This document shows positions 37,238-44,637 of a DNA stretch of 64,000 nt, piece by piece. Source of the stretch: Microbacterium sp. CGR2 (GTDB lineage Bacteria > Actinomycetota > Actinomycetes > Actinomycetales > Microbacteriaceae); assembly GCF_003626735.1 (NCBI RefSeq), contig NZ_RBHX01000001.1:2976001-3040000 (forward strand), written 5' to 3'. The stretch's first letter is position 1, and each line of letters opens with the position of its first letter. Made by a program: the position numbers and the translations under genes. The notes under the pieces were generated by a model. The model made no database searches and was not told the origin of the DNA. It saw only the letters and a program-made list of their open reading frames with translations.

Positions 37238-39331
37238 TCAGGCGTCGATGGACTCCCGCGACAGGCGTCCGGAGGAATCGATGATGAATTCACGTCGCGG
37301 GGCCACTTCGTTCCCCATGAGGAGTTCAAACATGCGCCCGGCCGCCTCCGCATCCTCCATGCGCACGCGACGCAGGAGCCGCCCGGAGCGATCCATGGTC
37401 GTCGTGGCCAGCTGCTCGGCATCCATCTCGCCGAGGCCCTTGTATCGCTGAATCGGCTCGTGCCACCGCTTGCCTGCCTTGCGGAGCTTGGCGAGGAGAG
37501 TGTGCATCTCCTGCTCGCTGTACGTGTAGATCGTCTCGTTCGGCTTCGAGCCGGGGTTCATGACGATGACCCGGTGCAGCGGCGGTACGGCGGCGAAGAC
37601 GCGACCGTCTTCGATCAATGGGCGCATGTAGCGGAAGAAGAGGGTCAGGAGCAGCGTGCGGATGTGCGCGCCGTCGACGTCGGCATCGCTCATCAGGATC
37701 ACTTTGCCGTAGCGAGCCGCGCCGATGTCGAAGGTGCGGCCGGAGCCGGCCCCGATCACCTGGATGATCGATGCGCACTCCGCGTTGGAGAGCATGTCGC
37801 CGACGGAGGCCTTCTGCACGTTGAGGATCTTGCCGCGGATGGGCAGCAGCGCCTGGAACTCGCTGTTCCGCGCGTTCTTCGCCGTCCCCAGCGCCGAGTC
37901 ACCCTCGACGATGAAGAGTTCGCTGCGATCGACCTCGTTCGTGCGGCAGTCGACGAGCTTCGTCGGCAACGTGGAGGACTCCAGGGCGTTCTTGCGCCGC
38001 TGGGTCTCCTTGTGCGCGCGTGCGGACACGCGCGCCTTCATCTCGGAGACGACCTTGTCGAGCAGCTGTGTCGCCTGGCTCTTGTCGTCACGCTTCGGAG
38101 AACTGAACCGGTGAGCCAGGTCCTTCCGCAGGACCTGGGCGACCACCTGGCGCACGGCCGGAGTGCCGAGGATCTCCTTCGTCTGCCCCTCGAACTGCGG
38201 TTCGGGAACGTTCACCGTGAGCACGGCGGTGAGCCCGGCGAGGACGTCGTCCTTCTCGAGCTTGTCGTTTCCGACCTTCAGCCGGCGAGCGTTCTGCTCG
38301 ACCTGGGAGCGGAGCACCTTCAGCAGTTCCTGCTCGAATCCCTGCTGGTGGGTACCGCCCTTCGGCGTGGCGATGATGTTGACGAACGAGCGCACCTTGG
38401 TGTCGTAACCGGTGCCCCAGCGCAAGGCGATGTCGACCGCGCACACGCGCTCCACCTCGGTGGAGACCATGTGGCCGTTCGCCTGCAGTACCGGCACAGT
38501 CTCTTTGAACGTTCCCTCGCCTTGAATTCGCCAGGTGTCCGTGACCGGCGGATCGATCGCGAGGTAGTCGACGAACTCGGCGATGCCGCCTTCGTAGTGG
38601 TACGAGGTCTCGACGGCGGCGCCGTCTTCGGACGCCACGGCGCGCTCGTCGCGCACCACGATCTCGAGCCCGGGAACGAGGAAGGCCGTCTGACGGGCGC
38701 GGGTCTCGAGGTCAGGAAGCTGGAAGGCGGCATCCTTCGTGAAGATCTGACGGTCGGCCCAGTACCGGATGCGCGTTCCGGTCACCCCGCGTGGGGCTTT
38801 GCCGACCACGCGGAGCTCGCTCTTGTCCTCGAAGGGTGTGAAGGGCACGTCGGGACGCTTCTCGCCCGAATCGGCGAAGATGCCCGGCTCGCCGCGATGG
38901 AATGACATCGCGTACGTCTTGCCGCCGCGATCGACCTCGACATCGAGCCGCTCCGACAGCGCATTCACCACAGAGGCGCCGACACCGTGCAGACCACCGG
39001 ATGCCGCGTATGATCCGCCGCCGAACTTCCCGCCGGCGTGCAGTTTCGTGAAGACCACCTCGACGCCCGACAGTCCGGTGCGCGGTTCGACGTCCACGGG
39101 GATGCCGCGACCGCGGTCGTGCACCTCCACGCTGCCGTCGGCGTGCAGGATGACGTCGATCTTGTTCCCGTTGCCCGCGACGGTCTCATCGACGGCGTTG
39201 TCGATGATCTCCCAGAGGCAGTGCATCAGGCCCGGGGATCCGTTGGAACCGATGTACATACCGGGACGCTTGCGAACAGCCTCGAGCCCTTCGAGCACCT
39301 GGAGATGATGGGCGGAATACTCGGCGGTCAC
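37238..39331 (-). CDS. parE: DNA topoisomerase IV subunit B (ParE-type)
   Basis: The 697-residue ATPase subunit has the GHKL motifs EIIDNAVDE and GLHGVGASVVNALS, the transducer lysine region QTKEILG, the Toprim EGDSALGTAKNARNSEFQALLPIRGKI (shown in part) and DADVDGAHIRTLLLTLFFR. QTKEILG and the short C-terminus are ParE-like. The GTG at 39331 gives the standard opening VTAEYSAHHLQVLEGLEAVR; TAGACT 8 nt upstream suggests a leaderless transcript. Works with ParC. Confidence 0.9.
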   Translation of the reverse strand: MTAEYSAHHLQVLEGLEAVRKRPGMYIGSNGSPGLMHCLWEIIDNAVDETVAGNGNKIDVILHADGSVEVHDRGRGIPVDVEPRTGLSGVEVVFTKLHAGGKFGGGSYAASGGLHGVGASVVNALSERLDVEVDRGGKTYAMSFHRGEPGIFADSGEKRPDVPFTPFEDKSELRVVGKAPRGVTGTRIRYWADRQIFTKDAAFQLPDLETRARQTAFLVPGLEIVVRDERAVASEDGAAVETSYHYEGGIAEFVDYLAIDPPVTDTWRIQGEGTFKETVPVLQANGHMVSTEVERVCAVDIALRWGTGYDTKVRSFVNIIATPKGGTHQQGFEQELLKVLRSQVEQNARRLKVGNDKLEKDDVLAGLTAVLTVNVPEPQFEGQTKEILGTPAVRQVVAQVLRKDLAHRFSSPKRDDKSQATQLLDKVVSEMKARVSARAHKETQRRKNALESSTLPTKLVDCRTNEVDRSELFIVEGDSALGTAKNARNSEFQALLPIRGKILNVQKASVGDMLSNAECASIIQVIGAGSGRTFDIGAARYGKVILMSDADVDGAHIRTLLLTLFFRYMRPLIEDGRVFAAVPPLHRVIVMNPGSKPNETIYTYSEQEMHTLLAKLRKAGKRWHEPIQRYKGLGEMDAEQLATTTMDRSGRLLRRVRMEDAEAAGRMFELLMGNEVAPRREFIIDSSGRLSRESIDA

Positions 39332-39339
39332 AATCTCCG

Positions 39340-39345
39340 AGTCTA
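39340..39345 (-). promoter_or_regulatory. -10 (TAGACT) for parE
   Basis: On the minus strand TAGACT ends 8 nt before the GTG start of parE. A GGAG partly fills the gap but is only 3 nt from the GTG. Confidence 0.4.
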
Positions 39346-39512
39346 TTCGCGTTGCCTCTCCGCAACCGGCAGACACTCCCCGCGGATGAACAGACCGCCA
39401 CCCTCGCGTACGCGCTGAGCGAAACACGCCGCGATCCGGGCATGCCTACAGGGTGCGCGTGGTTGTATTGAGCACGTCCCACCACAATGCCGATACCCGA
39501 GGAGGCACCGAG

Positions 39513-39731
39513 ATGAATGCAACGACCGAACGTGAGGCCTCCGCCGTCGAATTCCGCCTGACCGCGCTGGATCGCTGTGATTCGTGTGGCGCTCAGGCGT
39601 ACATCGCCGCCGAGGTCAACGGCTCCGAGCTGCTGTTCTGCGCCCACCACGGCCGCAAGTACGAAGAGAAGCTCCGCAGCATCGCGACCAGCTGGCACGA
39701 CGAGAGCTCTCGCCTCATCGAAGCCGTCTGA
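39513..39731 (+). CDS. DUF7455-type small zinc-binding protein
   Basis: The 72-residue protein has CDSCGAQAY and LFCAHHGRKYEEKL, a Cys-Cys/Cys-His-His cluster that should bind one zinc. A polar N-terminus and a helical C-terminus flank it. Such proteins are conserved in actinobacteria near the primary sigma factor and topoisomerase genes. ATG 39513 follows CGAGGAGG at 8 nt. Role unknown; nucleic-acid or RNA-polymerase contact is plausible. Confidence 0.83.
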   Translation: MNATTEREASAVEFRLTALDRCDSCGAQAYIAAEVNGSELLFCAHHGRKYEEKLRSIATSWHDESSRLIEAV

Positions 39732-39787: not shown

Positions 39788-40828
39788 TCAGTCGACGATC
39801 ACCCGGCGAACCCGTGCGGTCAGCCGGGTGAGTATCTCTTCGCCGACGGAGTCGATGCGTTCCGCGAGGCTGGTGGCGCTGATCTCGCCGCGCTCACCTC
39901 GCCCGAACACGGACACCTCGTCGCCGATGCTCGCCTGCGGCCATCCTTCGACGACAGACGTCGTCGGACCGATCTCCTTGATCGCCCTCGCGCCTGCCGG
40001 TGTTCCGACCGGTGCGCCGGTGAGCGTGGAGGGAAGCCCATCGAAGCTGCCGAGCGCGACGATGGCCTCCCCGTCGAGCACGTCGATGACGAATGCGGTC
40101 AGCTCGGCGACCGGGTCGATGCCGTCGAGCATCGGCCCCTCCGCCGAACGGATGCCGTAGCAGAACGCTCCGATACGCGACAGCGATCCCCGCAGTTCGG
40201 GTCGCCACCAGGATGCTGCCGACGCGGTCAGGTGCAGCGAGCCGGGAGTCGGTCCGGAGTCCGCCGTCGCTCGGATCGCGTCGAGGAACACCGCCTGGGC
40301 GTCGTCGTCTTCGGCATCGCTCGCCTCGGCGATGTGACTCCAGACACCGTCCAACTCCAGAACGCCTTGCGCTTCGGCCGCTCGTGCTTCGGCGACGGCA
40401 GCACGCCAGTCTTCGGGGAGGACCCCGTTGCGGTGCAACCCCGTGTCGATCTTCAGGTGCACTCGCGCCCGCTTGCCGAGAGCCGAGGCACGAGCGATGA
40501 TTCGCCGAAGATACTCCGTCGTCCCGACCCCGAGGTCGATCTCATGGCTGAGTGCCGCGTCGATCTCGGCATCCGTCGACGTCGCCCAGGCGAAGACCCG
40601 CACATCGTCGCCTGCGACACCTCGCACCTTCACGCCGCCCGCGATGTCGTAGCTGCCGTACCATTCGACTCCCGCCTGCGCCGCCGTCTCCACCGCCCAG
40701 GCCAGTCCGTGACCGTAGGCGTCGTCTTTGAGAACGAGCATCATGTCGGAGGGTGCCAAACGTGTCGCGACTTCGTCGATGTTCTGACGGAAGACGCGGC
40801 TGCTGATGCGCAGCTCAGGACGGGTCAT
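39788..40828 (-). CDS. alr: alanine racemase paralogue A: PLP barrel with Lys, catalytic Tyr hairpin missing
   Basis: This 346-residue protein keeps the full PLP-binding barrel of alanine racemase. LVLKDDAYGHG carries the Schiff-base Lys34, KIDTGLHRNG the conserved Arg region, LHLTASAAS a phosphate-binding serine, and SRIGAFCYG the pyridine-N arginine. The C-terminal domain is present (IGDEVSVFGRGERGEISATSLAE) but the GVSYG-type hairpin with the second catalytic base, Tyr265 in the Geobacillus enzyme, is absent: FVIDVLDGEAIVALGSFDG runs straight across it. Alone it should not racemise normally. ATG overlaps the stop of paralogue B (ATGA), so the two are co-translated. Family is certain; partner dependence is inferred. 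Confidence 0.85.
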   Translation of the reverse strand: MTRPELRISSRVFRQNIDEVATRLAPSDMMLVLKDDAYGHGLAWAVETAAQAGVEWYGSYDIAGGVKVRGVAGDDVRVFAWATSTDAEIDAALSHEIDLGVGTTEYLRRIIARASALGKRARVHLKIDTGLHRNGVLPEDWRAAVAEARAAEAQGVLELDGVWSHIAEASDAEDDDAQAVFLDAIRATADSGPTPGSLHLTASAASWWRPELRGSLSRIGAFCYGIRSAEGPMLDGIDPVAELTAFVIDVLDGEAIVALGSFDGLPSTLTGAPVGTPAGARAIKEIGPTTSVVEGWPQASIGDEVSVFGRGERGEISATSLAERIDSVGEEILTRLTARVRRVIVD

Positions 40829-41529
40829 GCCTCCCACCCCCGAGCGCCATGCGACCCGGCCACCGTGACGAGCTCGGGGATCGTCATCCCGGTCGCGGCG
40901 GCCCACAGTGCGAGCCCCGCCGCAGCGGTGCCTCGGCCGCCGAAGTAGGTGACATCCGCACCCAGTTCCACGTCGTCCCCCTCGAGATCGATCATGCAGA
41001 CGTCCATGGCGACGCGCCCCACGATGGGAAGGCTCCGCCCGGCGACGTCGACGTGTGCCTGGTTGCCGAGCGCACGCACGATGCCCTGCGCGTATCCCCC
41101 GGTCACCAGCGCCACCGTGGTGTCCCGCGCCGCGCGATAGGTGTAGCCGTAGGAGACCGCGTCGCCCGGTCGCAGGGGTTTGGTGGACATCACCGCGCCG
41201 GCGAATCGCATGACGGGCCGCGTCGTCAGCGCTCCGGTCTCATCCGGCAAGCCGTACAGGAGCGCCGGATCGATGTCCGGTTCTCCAGAGGTCACGGCGG
41301 CGATCCCCTCGGCGCGGAGGACTGCGACCTCCCCGTCGGAGTCGACCAGGACCCGCTCCGCTCCTGCGGCCGACACGGCGGGAGCCACAGCCAGAATGCC
41401 GTGCCCCCAGGCGTCGCGTCGCAGGTCGGCGGTCCGGCCGCCGGCCTTCACGGCCGTCTCGGCCGCAGCAGCGAGCGCGGAGCGGGATATCACGGCCCTC
41501 GGGAGGGCGCTGGAGGTCGTGTCACACAC
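40825..41529 (-). CDS. alanine racemase paralogue B: short, keeps catalytic Tyr, Lys replaced by Arg
   Basis: This 234-residue protein is clearly Alr-derived but shortened by about 130 residues. It keeps the first barrel strand, where the PLP-Lys motif reads RRDAWGHG with Arg37 at the Lys position, then jumps to DPALLYGL, the last barrel strand, which has lost its Arg. The C-terminal domain is complete: AVSYGYTYRA holds Tyr127 (Tyr265 equivalent), followed by GRVAMDVCMIDL and the family tail. It cannot bind PLP in the usual way. It is the upstream gene of the pair, starts GTG 7 nt after TAGTCT, and ends in an ATGA overlap with paralogue A. Best read as the complementing half of a heterodimer. 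Confidence 0.8.
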   Translation of the reverse strand: MCDTTSSALPRAVISRSALAAAAETAVKAGGRTADLRRDAWGHGILAVAPAVSAAGAERVLVDSDGEVAVLRAEGIAAVTSGEPDIDPALLYGLPDETGALTTRPVMRFAGAVMSTKPLRPGDAVSYGYTYRAARDTTVALVTGGYAQGIVRALGNQAHVDVAGRSLPIVGRVAMDVCMIDLEGDDVELGADVTYFGGRGTAAAGLALWAAATGMTIPELVTVAGSHGARGWEA

Positions 41530-41610: not shown

Positions 41611-42627
41611 ATGTCCCGTCTTTCCCTCGCGCCCCGCATCCGCTATCTGCTGGGACGCGCCCGTCGTATCGATGTCGGATCGGTGGTGGAACGAGCCAAA
41701 GAAGCGTCAGCGCAGCACCACAGGGCCGTGCCGGTGATCGTCGGTGACATGCTGTGGTCCGCTGCACGTCACAACGTGGGCTTCCAGGACTACATCGATT
41801 ACGACTTCGCCATGCTCACCCGCGCCGAGCGCGAGACATTCATGACGCACCCGGTGTCGAACCAGTTGTCACAGCGCTACGACCACCCGGACTTCCGCTG
41901 GATCTTCCAGGACAAGGTCGCCTTCGACCGGCATTTCGCCGCCCACCTGCACCGCGAGTGGCTCGTCGTCGACGAGAACAACGCCGAGGCCGTCCGCGAG
42001 CTCACGCAACGACTCGGCACCATCGTGACGAAAGAGCCGGTCGGTCAGGCGGGAACCGGTGTGCACCGCTACCACGCCGCGGAGATCGAGGACTGGGACG
42101 CGTTCCACCGCGGTCTCCTCAAAAGAGGCGAGCTCCTCATCGAAGAGGTCATCCGCCAGCACGATGCGCTTGCAGCGGTCTGCCCCGGCACGGTGAACAC
42201 CACTCGAGTGACCGCGTTTTTCGACGGCGAGAAGGCTCACATCCTCGCGATGGCGCAGAAATTCGGTCGCGGCGCGGTGAGCGATCAGATGACCTTCGGC
42301 GGCTTCTACACGATGCTCGACGAGAACGGTCACGCCGTCGGCGCCGGGTACGACTCGCACGGGCATGTGCATGAGACACACCCGGACACCGGTTTCCGCA
42401 TCGCCGACTTCCAATTGCCCCACATGGAACAGGTGCGCGAGTTCATCGATCAGGTTGCCCGCGTGGTCCCGCAGGTGCAGTACGTCGGCTGGGACATCGT
42501 CGTGTCTCCCGACGGCCCGGTCCTCGTCGAAGGCAACTGGGGTGCGGGAGTCTACGAGAACAAGCCGAGTGTCACCGGCATCCGCACGGGACACAAGCCG
42601 CGCTACCGCGAAGTCATCGGGTTCTGA
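41611..42627 (+). CDS. sugar-transfer-associated ATP-grasp enzyme
   Basis: The 338-residue protein resembles the ATP-grasp family often found in polysaccharide and cell-surface clusters. KEPVGQAGTGVHRY looks like the ATP-binding loop, ELLIEEVIRQHD the hinge, TVNTTRVTAFF a conserved strand and VGWDIVVSPDGPVLVEGNWGAG the metal-binding C-terminal motif. Such enzymes join a carboxylate to an amine; here the substrates are unknown. GGAG precedes the ATG. It is divergent from the alanine racemase pair (81 bp between starts) and followed by a strong terminator. Confidence 0.78.
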   Translation: MSRLSLAPRIRYLLGRARRIDVGSVVERAKEASAQHHRAVPVIVGDMLWSAARHNVGFQDYIDYDFAMLTRAERETFMTHPVSNQLSQRYDHPDFRWIFQDKVAFDRHFAAHLHREWLVVDENNAEAVRELTQRLGTIVTKEPVGQAGTGVHRYHAAEIEDWDAFHRGLLKRGELLIEEVIRQHDALAAVCPGTVNTTRVTAFFDGEKAHILAMAQKFGRGAVSDQMTFGGFYTMLDENGHAVGAGYDSHGHVHETHPDTGFRIADFQLPHMEQVREFIDQVARVVPQVQYVGWDIVVSPDGPVLVEGNWGAGVYENKPSVTGIRTGHKPRYREVIGF

Positions 42628-42700: not shown

Positions 42701-43392
42701 TCAGACCGCCCGGACGATCCCGAGCGGAGTGGACTCCAAGCCCTGTCCGAGCGGATTGTCGCCGAGGATCTTGACGAGGCGGCGCTCTCCGTCTTTGTCG
42801 AGCGTCGATCCGAGGATGTTGCCGCCGAGGTCGTTGATGTCGACCACGGCCACCTCCGCGGCGCCGCCCAGCAGCGCCTTCAGGTGCGCGGCAACGCCAC
42901 GAGGGTCTTTCGGCCCGAGCACGACTGCTTCGTTGTAGGGCGGGATCGTGTGCTTCGTCGGACCGTCGATGGCACGGGCTTTGTCGCCGGCGATCCGGTA
43001 GAAGTCCCCTCGGCGTCCGAAGGCCTTCGTCACGGCGGCGACGGCCGACGCGAACAGGATGCGCGGAGTACCGCACTCACGCAACGCCATCTCCATCGTC
43101 TCGGGCATGCCGAGTCCGATGCCGTACGGCGTGCGGGTGACGTACTTCGACAGGAACAGCGCGAGCTTTCGCGGCTTGATGTCATCGAGCCGGTACGAGC
43201 GTCCCTGGGTGATCGCCACGATCTTCTCGGTGACGAACAGCAGGTCGCCCGGCTGCACGGCCGCCTTCGCGTACTCCGTGATGATCGCGTCGAGATCGTC
43301 GTCAGGCATCACCACGCGCGTCCGCAGCGGAATGCGGGCGTAGCTCTTCCCGTCGATGCTGGTCTCGAGCGCCTTGCCCTCGTTCGCCTGCA

Positions 43393-43396
<4 letters not shown>
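42701..43396 (-). CDS. CofE-like (F420-0 gamma-glutamyl ligase superfamily) protein, divergent
   Basis: The 231-residue protein belongs to the PF01996 ligase fold: [53 protein letters not shown] and [14 protein letters not shown]. Motifs typical of true CofE/FbiB, such as the NAGVD and SDTFGRPWR segments, are replaced, and the nitroreductase half of FbiB is missing. Amide or ester ligation of glutamate-like groups is likely, but F420 itself is doubtful. Its ATG overlaps the sigA stop (ATGA), an unexpected partner. A terminator follows. Confidence 0.8.

Positions 43397-44637
<1,241 letters not shown>

Follow-up and report, generated by a model that had tools for sequence, protein, structure and literature searches.

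A split pair of alanine racemase-like genes in Microbacterium and its relatives, proposed to encode an obligate heterodimeric racemase

Two overlapping genes in the window (the whole 64,000-nucleotide stretch of Microbacterium sp. CGR2 DNA that was analysed) encode racemase-like proteins, designated A and B, between which the catalytic residues of alanine racemase (Alr) are divided, and the same division was found throughout the aligned relatives. It is very likely that A and B form an obligate heterodimer with one composite site. A would bind B, and the composite site would racemise an amino acid. Taken as a whole, the explanation that we consider probable is an obligate heterodimeric racemase which provides a D-diamino acid for B-type peptidoglycan.

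The gene pair and the division of active-site residues

The pair comprises the following features:

40825..41529, minus strand: gene B, 234 amino acids, GTG start; tyrosine half of the racemase
39788..40828, minus strand: gene A, 346 amino acids, ATG start; PLP-lysine half, barrel complete
40825..40828, minus strand: stop/start overlap (ATGA) of B and A

The coordinates and the ATGA overlap given in the first-pass annotation were borne out, with the amendment that both genes are read from the minus strand, B being upstream and A downstream. The same overlap was implied by match coordinates in two further genomes (G258 and G106). The description of A as retaining the PLP lysine and the barrel without the tyrosine hairpin, and of B as retaining the hairpin tyrosine with arginine at the lysine position and most of the barrel gone, was confirmed by translation and Pfam. 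Protein A contains the motif LVLKDDAYGHG, in which Lys34 corresponds to Lys39 of Geobacillus Alr, and matched the N-terminal racemase domain in full (PF01168, 7.6e-40); its match to PF00842 (31.6 bits) does not start until profile position 35, VIDVLDGE joins AIVALGSFDG directly, and the VSYG hairpin with the second catalytic base is absent. The window copy of A has Glu at the position of Tyr354. In protein B the lysine motif reads LRRDAWGHG, with Arg37 at the Lys39 position, and the TIM barrel is mostly deleted; B matched PF00842 alone (1e-28) and carries AVSYGYTYRA, in which Tyr127 corresponds to Tyr265. The Alr fold was present, and the NCBIfam equivalog cut-off of TIGR00492 (168 bits) was missed by both A (116.6) and B (93.8). 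The predicted structure model of B was confident.

A and B open reading frames were taken from 30 + 30 loci of a 299-genome Microbacteriaceae sample, 44 named Microbacterium loci and 40 longer stretches, sorted into A or B by phmmer score (not by residues), freed of duplicates and aligned with 15 complete enzymes. The roles of Lys39, Tyr265 and the PLP contacts follow the account of alanine racemase in PMC3485190 (in part). Many of the aligned rows are close relatives, so that the residue counts are not counts of independent events. All active-site positions are given in the numbering of Geobacillus Alr. Lys39 was present in 102 of 104 A rows and in none of 103 B rows, while Tyr265 was present in 0/104 A rows and 102/103 B rows; no row combined the two, and the three exceptions were two A fragments from broken genes and a B cut by a contig end. 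His166 (102/104 A, 0/103 B), Arg136 (104/104 A, 8/103 B) and Arg219 (103/104 A, 9/103 B) went with A. Arg290 (5/104 A, 103/103 B) and Met312 (103/103 B, and outside the eight commonest residues of A at that column) went with B. The partition of Asp313 was imperfect (44/104 A; 94/103 B, with 9 Asn in B), Tyr284 was still found in 17/104 A rows and Tyr43 in 36/103 B rows. A chance or local artefact was ruled out by the conservation of this complementary pattern across the family. The possibility that another tyrosine of A occupies the site, raised in the first-pass annotation, was examined in 36 rows, in which the C-terminal domain of A has no Tyr, His or Cys conserved throughout, or nearly so, that could act as a stand-in base.

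A and B would thus be subunits of a fold-type-III PLP racemase derived from a homodimeric alanine racemase. In such an ancestor each site would have drawn Lys39, Arg136, His166, Ser204 and Arg219 from one subunit and Tyr265', Arg290', Met312' and Asp313' from the other; after duplication most of the second set would have disappeared from A and the first set from B, leaving an A-B dimer with one complete and one dead site. This arrangement, which had been proposed from the window alone, is supported in silico by the conservation of the pair, the residue split, natural fusions, and the genomes of Agreia and Pseudoclavibacter described below.

Distribution, fusions and further splits

Separate A and B pairs were found in at least 29 of the 85 sampled Microbacteriaceae genera, a lower bound since only part of the sampled genomes was examined at locus level. 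Among 92 genomes classed by residues, 77 had separate A and B, 3 had them fused, 3 were cut by contig ends and 9 had complete enzymes only. Both genes were present at 43 of the 44 named Microbacterium loci, the remaining locus stopping at a contig edge. The pair is thus conserved across genera of Microbacteriaceae, with the same split of both catalytic residues; in the stretches examined, an A without an adjacent B was seen only beside a contig end or in a fusion of the two. No B was found outside Microbacteriaceae in 297 genomes of the order (genomes of the same family included) at E <= 1e-50, a threshold at which a divergent B could be missed. Matches in 30 genomes of other families started at profile position 30 or later and lay in open frames of at least 391 amino acids, as complete enzymes would. 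One stretch (L125:4646-12595) carries two A-B pairs. At two of the 44 named loci (L076:6369-7738 and L100:4542-6211) gene A, but not B, is interrupted and reads as two overlapping open reading frames, through either sequencing error or real loss.

A B-type protein was found in 10 of the 13 sampled Microbacterium genomes, and the other 3 had a complete Alr only. A search for a separate canonical alr in the window genome, as the first-pass annotation had advised, returned two complete alr-type genes: one from G000:C1:1940023 on (L001), with Lys39, Tyr265 and Tyr354, and a divergent one at G000:C1:1290864-1291904 (L002), with Lys39, Tyr265 and His at 354. A/B is therefore not the only candidate alanine racemase of this genome, and, with 3/13 genomes lacking it, the pair is not essential to the genus.

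Purifying selection was apparent on both A and B, with dN/dS of about 0.15-0.23 against six Microbacterium relatives (L070, L071, L074, L080, L085 and L096), values that are imprecise because dS was near 1. Higher ratios were obtained against the more divergent L105 and L113, the highest being that of L113 B, with dN 0.57 and dS 0.84.

B and A are fused in that order in one chain in three genomes (G234, G243 and G283), and deposited fused proteins were also found (P0006-P0009 and P0023). An AF2 model of a 663-residue fusion, run as a single chain with the B half covered by only 7 alignment rows, gave a pLDDT of 88.7 and a pTM of 0.89. VIA-align matched residues 270-663 only of this model to Alr chains, i.e. 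the A half alone.

A second, separately split racemase, the housekeeping Alr, was found in Agreia (genus g78) in all five genomes, as separate genes that run A'-B' and retain Tyr354 (L174-L177 and L225). The genes that follow are, to judge by names that we assume, tsaE, tsaB, rimI and tsaD. In whole-genome searches each of the five Agreia genomes gave four PF00842 matches and no more, two of A type and two of B type, none complete; the A-type matches start at profile position 28-33, and further proteins match PF01168 alone, without PF00842. In Pseudoclavibacter (genus g74) a fused A'-B' with Tyr354 was present in all five genomes (G234, G073, G188, G274 and G136; loci L224, L228-L230 and L240), and in G234 it precedes tsaD. 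Across all ten genomes A' holds Lys39, Tyr43, Arg136, His166, Arg219 and Tyr354, and B' holds Tyr265, Arg290, Met312 and Asp313; A' of Agreia additionally keeps Asp313 and Tyr284, and most B' of Pseudoclavibacter keep Arg at 219. Besides A'-B', G234 has the fused B-A only, and G136 has no other match to PF00842, the sole profile searched there. Each of the other three Pseudoclavibacter genomes (G073, G188 and G274) also carries a complete gene resembling a broad-specificity racemase (L250, L251 and L252; type judged by eye).

When the complete Alr of the window genome was used as a query against 74 genomes with the pair or part of it, the best matches were by far the weakest in four Pseudoclavibacter (E about 1e-66 to 1e-69), followed by the five Agreia (1e-85 to 1e-95); in the other 65, the best match covered most of the query at an E of 1e-93 or better, as judged by score and not by residues. 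No complete PF00842 enzyme was found in seven genomes (five Agreia, G234 and G136), and the split form therefore very probably works in these. D-Amino-acid transaminase matches were obtained in all six genomes searched (five Agreia and G234), and none exceeded the TIGR01121 cut-off (best score 64.4 against 277.45 bits). As peptidoglycan requires D-Ala, the seven genomes very probably depend on the split or fused enzyme as their sole alanine racemase; an unrecognised transaminase is a possible source of D-Ala in Agreia and G234.

In a tree of the C-terminal domain (133 columns, with weak resolution) A (97) and B (81) each formed one group, with A' and B' of Agreia placed elsewhere and B' among complete enzymes with an acidic residue at 354. 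The tree of the N-terminal domain set the A rows, together with nine complete enzymes of which seven were checked as Glu/Asp354, apart from the Tyr354 enzymes and Agreia A' (100/99); one member on the Tyr354 side has His. The A rows were not one clade there, complete acidic-354 enzymes falling among them, so that the window-type split may have more than one origin. At least two independent splits would have occurred, the window type having split once or more than once. In six genomes (G031, G034, G040, G087, G295 and G298; loci L137, L140, L147, L149, L150 and L178) two complete genes stand in tandem, the Tyr354 copy first and the Glu/Asp354 copy second, and three Herbiconiux proteins (P0011, P0013 and P0014) are complete with Asp354. 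Such complete Asp/Glu354 racemases possibly represent the state before the split.

Three accounts other than an obligate heterodimeric racemase were weighed against these data. The chance that A and B are remnants of a decaying tandem duplication is negligible: both genes are reduced, and A is broken at L076 and L100, but purifying selection, by which pseudogene decay was rejected, stands against it together with conservation over 29 genera, synteny and the confident model of B. Activity of A alone as a homodimer, with another second base or none and with B as a regulator or chaperone, would fit the retention of the PLP-binding side of the site in A; it is nonetheless very improbable given the lack of such a stand-in Tyr, His or Cys in the C-terminal domain of A, the conservation of Tyr265, Arg290 and Met312 of B in the manner of catalytic residues, the natural fusions, and the Agreia pairs in genomes without a complete enzyme. 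We give similarly little credence to a composite PLP site that carries out another reaction (decarboxylation, transamination or the epimerisation of a bound residue). Decarboxylases, too, belong to fold-type III, but both racemase bases are kept over the pair, and the split alanine-type pairs suggest that the architecture can replace a racemase.

Relation to known systems

The fold and both catalytic residues of alanine racemase (PF01168 + PF00842, TIGR00492; PDB 1SFT and 1XFC) are present over the pair, and the site of that enzyme is likewise built from two subunits. A and B differ from it in being two different chains with about half of the residues each, in the expectation of one site per dimer instead of two, and in the acidic residue that replaces Tyr354. 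The lysine-preferred and broad-specificity racemases Lyr (4DZA), Bar (4DYJ) and BsrV share with A/B fold type III and the loss of the Tyr354 equivalent and act on larger substrates (PMC3485190, in part). They are, however, complete homodimers whereas A is incomplete, and Lyr and Bar have Thr391 and Ala393, respectively, at the position of Glu/Asp in A (PMC3485190, in part).

Among more distant parallels, PddB is a PLP-independent diaminobutyrate (Dab) racemase which forms D-Dab in an actinobacterium; unlike A/B it is DapF-related, cofactor-free and serves a secondary metabolite (PMC8225329, in part). Our search of the open-access literature returned no earlier description of a split racemase pair, in agreement with the first-pass annotation, which knew of no such split, asymmetric enzyme; nor did the terms used there for the racemases of B-type peptidoglycan bring up a paper. 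Serine palmitoyltransferase (LCB1/LCB2) is a PLP heterodimer with the lysine in only one subunit, as in A/B, but it is of fold type I and is not a racemase. In trypanosomes, enzyme-prozyme pairs such as that of deoxyhypusine synthase depend on a dead paralogue for the activity of its partner; these are eukaryotic, and no single racemase site is divided reciprocally between the partners. Complementary loss in homomers is the presumed route to obligate heteromers. To our knowledge, so clean a split of one active site, with complete, split and fused forms in one family, is rare. The forms that can be expressed and compared include complete tandem genes, B truncated to different degrees, separate pairs and natural fusions, and the system bears on the origin of obligate protein partnerships and on the building of an unusual cell wall.

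Locus neighbourhood and likely substrate

The pair is flanked in the window by the following features:

37238..39427, minus strand: topoisomerase subunit, presumably of ParE/GyrB type from the look of its sequence; syntenic locus boundary
39453..39731, plus strand: DUF7455 protein; lies between parE and the pair and serves as a syntenic marker
41611..42627, plus strand: ATP-grasp protein (PF14397, 113.7 bits), a divergent neighbour often near the pair in relatives
42701..43396, minus strand: CofE-like protein (F420_ligase, PF01996, 46.6 bits)
43393..44637, minus strand: principal sigma factor, which we take to be of rpoD/sigA type; the other syntenic boundary

All pair-bearing stretches (44 named and 53 from genomes, up to 13 kb) contained parE, rpoD or both, and across genera the DUF7455 protein is often encoded next to parE and the pair. 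The CofE-like gene of the window sits where other genomes have MurT and GatD-like genes. MurT with a GatD-like gene was found in 8/44 named and 34/53 genome stretches, and a CofE-like gene with ATP-grasp in 33/44 and 13/53 (two of the latter with an additional EctB-like gene). CofE-like alone occurred in 1/44 and 3/53, ATP-grasp alone in 1/44 and 0/53, MurT with CofE-like in 0/44 and 1/53 (L161), and neither set in 1/44 and 2/53 (L113, L148 and L152). The two sets, CofE-like (mostly with ATP-grasp) and MurT with GatD-like, thus occupy one slot almost mutually exclusively, even within Microbacterium (L070-L173). No MurT_C match was found in the window genome, and an open reading frame near the pair in L113 (L113:3916-5124) had no Pfam match.

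Four of the MurT-like proteins were tested for Mur_ligase_M and MurT_C: those of L119, L094 and L115 were over both Pfam cut-offs, and that of L133 scored 23.4 against the MurT_C cut-off of 25. The L119 protein was far under the NCBIfam MurT cut-off (113.2 against 800). MurT-GatD normally amidates the alpha-carboxyl of D-Glu. We take the Cys of ICGGYQ in PDB 5N9M to be the GatD nucleophile, and this column, located by aligning two rows to 5N9M, held Cys in none of the 42 GatD-like neighbours (Gly 27, Ala 10, Ser 3, Thr 2; for example L119:7727-8548 and L133:5037-5921); the histidine column held His in 18/42. The missing glutaminase Cys in all 42 suggests that the MurT beside the pair may take an amine other than glutamine-derived ammonia. 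The L125 cluster includes a diaminobutyrate-oxoglutarate aminotransferase that exceeds its NCBIfam cut-off, and that of L116 (L116:3570-8466) a diaminobutyrate aminotransferase homologue. The EctB-like gene could serve another pathway.

At position 354, which is known to gate specificity, the 129 A rows had Glu (82), Asp (41), Tyr (4, the second pair of Agreia) or a gap (2), and the 15 complete enzymes had Tyr (9), Glu (3), Asp (2) or His (1). Charged residues at 354 lowered alanine racemisation in one alanine racemase from a thermophile (PMC4517790, in part), and lysine-preferring racemases lack Tyr354 (PMC3485190, in part). In Clavibacter D-Dab joins D-Glu and D-Ala (PMC9603630, in part), and the Agreia wall contains L-Dab with D-Orn (PMC5945732, in part). 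Wall types were assigned to pair carriers by species or clade name. In B-type peptidoglycan the bridge is attached at the alpha-carboxyl of D-Glu. Seven of nine named pair-carrying species (M. algeriense, M. maritypicum, M. oxydans, M. paraoxydans, M. hydrocarbonoxydans, M. galbinum and M. sufflavum), in a sample that favours close relatives of the window and also includes M. bovistercoris and M. halophytorum, belong to the D-ornithine cluster V or were examined alongside it, and D-ornithine is stated in the descriptions of M. galbinum SSW1-36 and M. sufflavum SSW1-51, both sequenced (PMC10757982, in part). Some Microbacterium clusters contain both L-lysine and D-ornithine species (PMC10757982, in part). 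Against the D-ornithine reading, L-ornithine is reported in one Microbacterium description (PMC10978784, in part).

The acidic residue at 354, the cell-wall neighbours, the diaminobutyrate aminotransferases at two loci and the D-ornithine walls of carriers together suggest a D-diamino-acid racemase. It had earlier been supposed that the substrate could be alanine or another cell-wall amino acid; on residue 354, neighbours and walls, a cell-wall diamino acid is the likelier of these. That A and B act on a diamino acid is fairly likely, and for this organism we lean, a little less firmly, towards the formation of D-ornithine, while diaminobutyrate or lysine may be the substrate in relatives; the enzyme would thus form D-ornithine, D-Dab or D-Lys for the bridge of B-type peptidoglycan, with alanine possible. 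An A-B heterodimer that racemises alanine, the pair being a second alanine racemase, agrees with the enzyme family and with the Agreia split pair with Tyr354, which very probably supplies D-Ala. We regard it as improbable, since 123/129 A rows have Glu/Asp354 while split alanine-type pairs keep Tyr, a complete Tyr354 Alr (L001) is already present in the window genome, and 3/13 Microbacterium genomes manage without the pair.

With a D-diamino acid as the preferred product, a wider and tentative reading, to which we give somewhat less than even weight, is that the locus is the missing bridge module of B-type peptidoglycan and at the same time a case of repeated conversion of a homodimer to a heterodimer. 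The split racemase would make the D-diamino acid, MurT with the dead GatD would ligate this instead of ammonia to the alpha-carboxyl of D-glutamate, and the CofE-like and ATP-grasp proteins would be a positional replacement for that ligation. The change from a two-site homodimer to a one-site heterodimer would have happened more than once and gone to completion, reaching what seems the sole alanine racemase of the cell in Agreia and a single-chain pseudo-dimer in Pseudoclavibacter. An answer on the substrate would open the genetics of B-type peptidoglycan.

The Alr of one pair-free genome (G573) was closest, among species-named proteins, to those of M. lacticum, M. flavum and M. laevaniformans (82-83%). 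The cluster II clade of Microbacterium is presumed here to have an L-lysine wall. These three species form cluster II (PMC10757982, in part).
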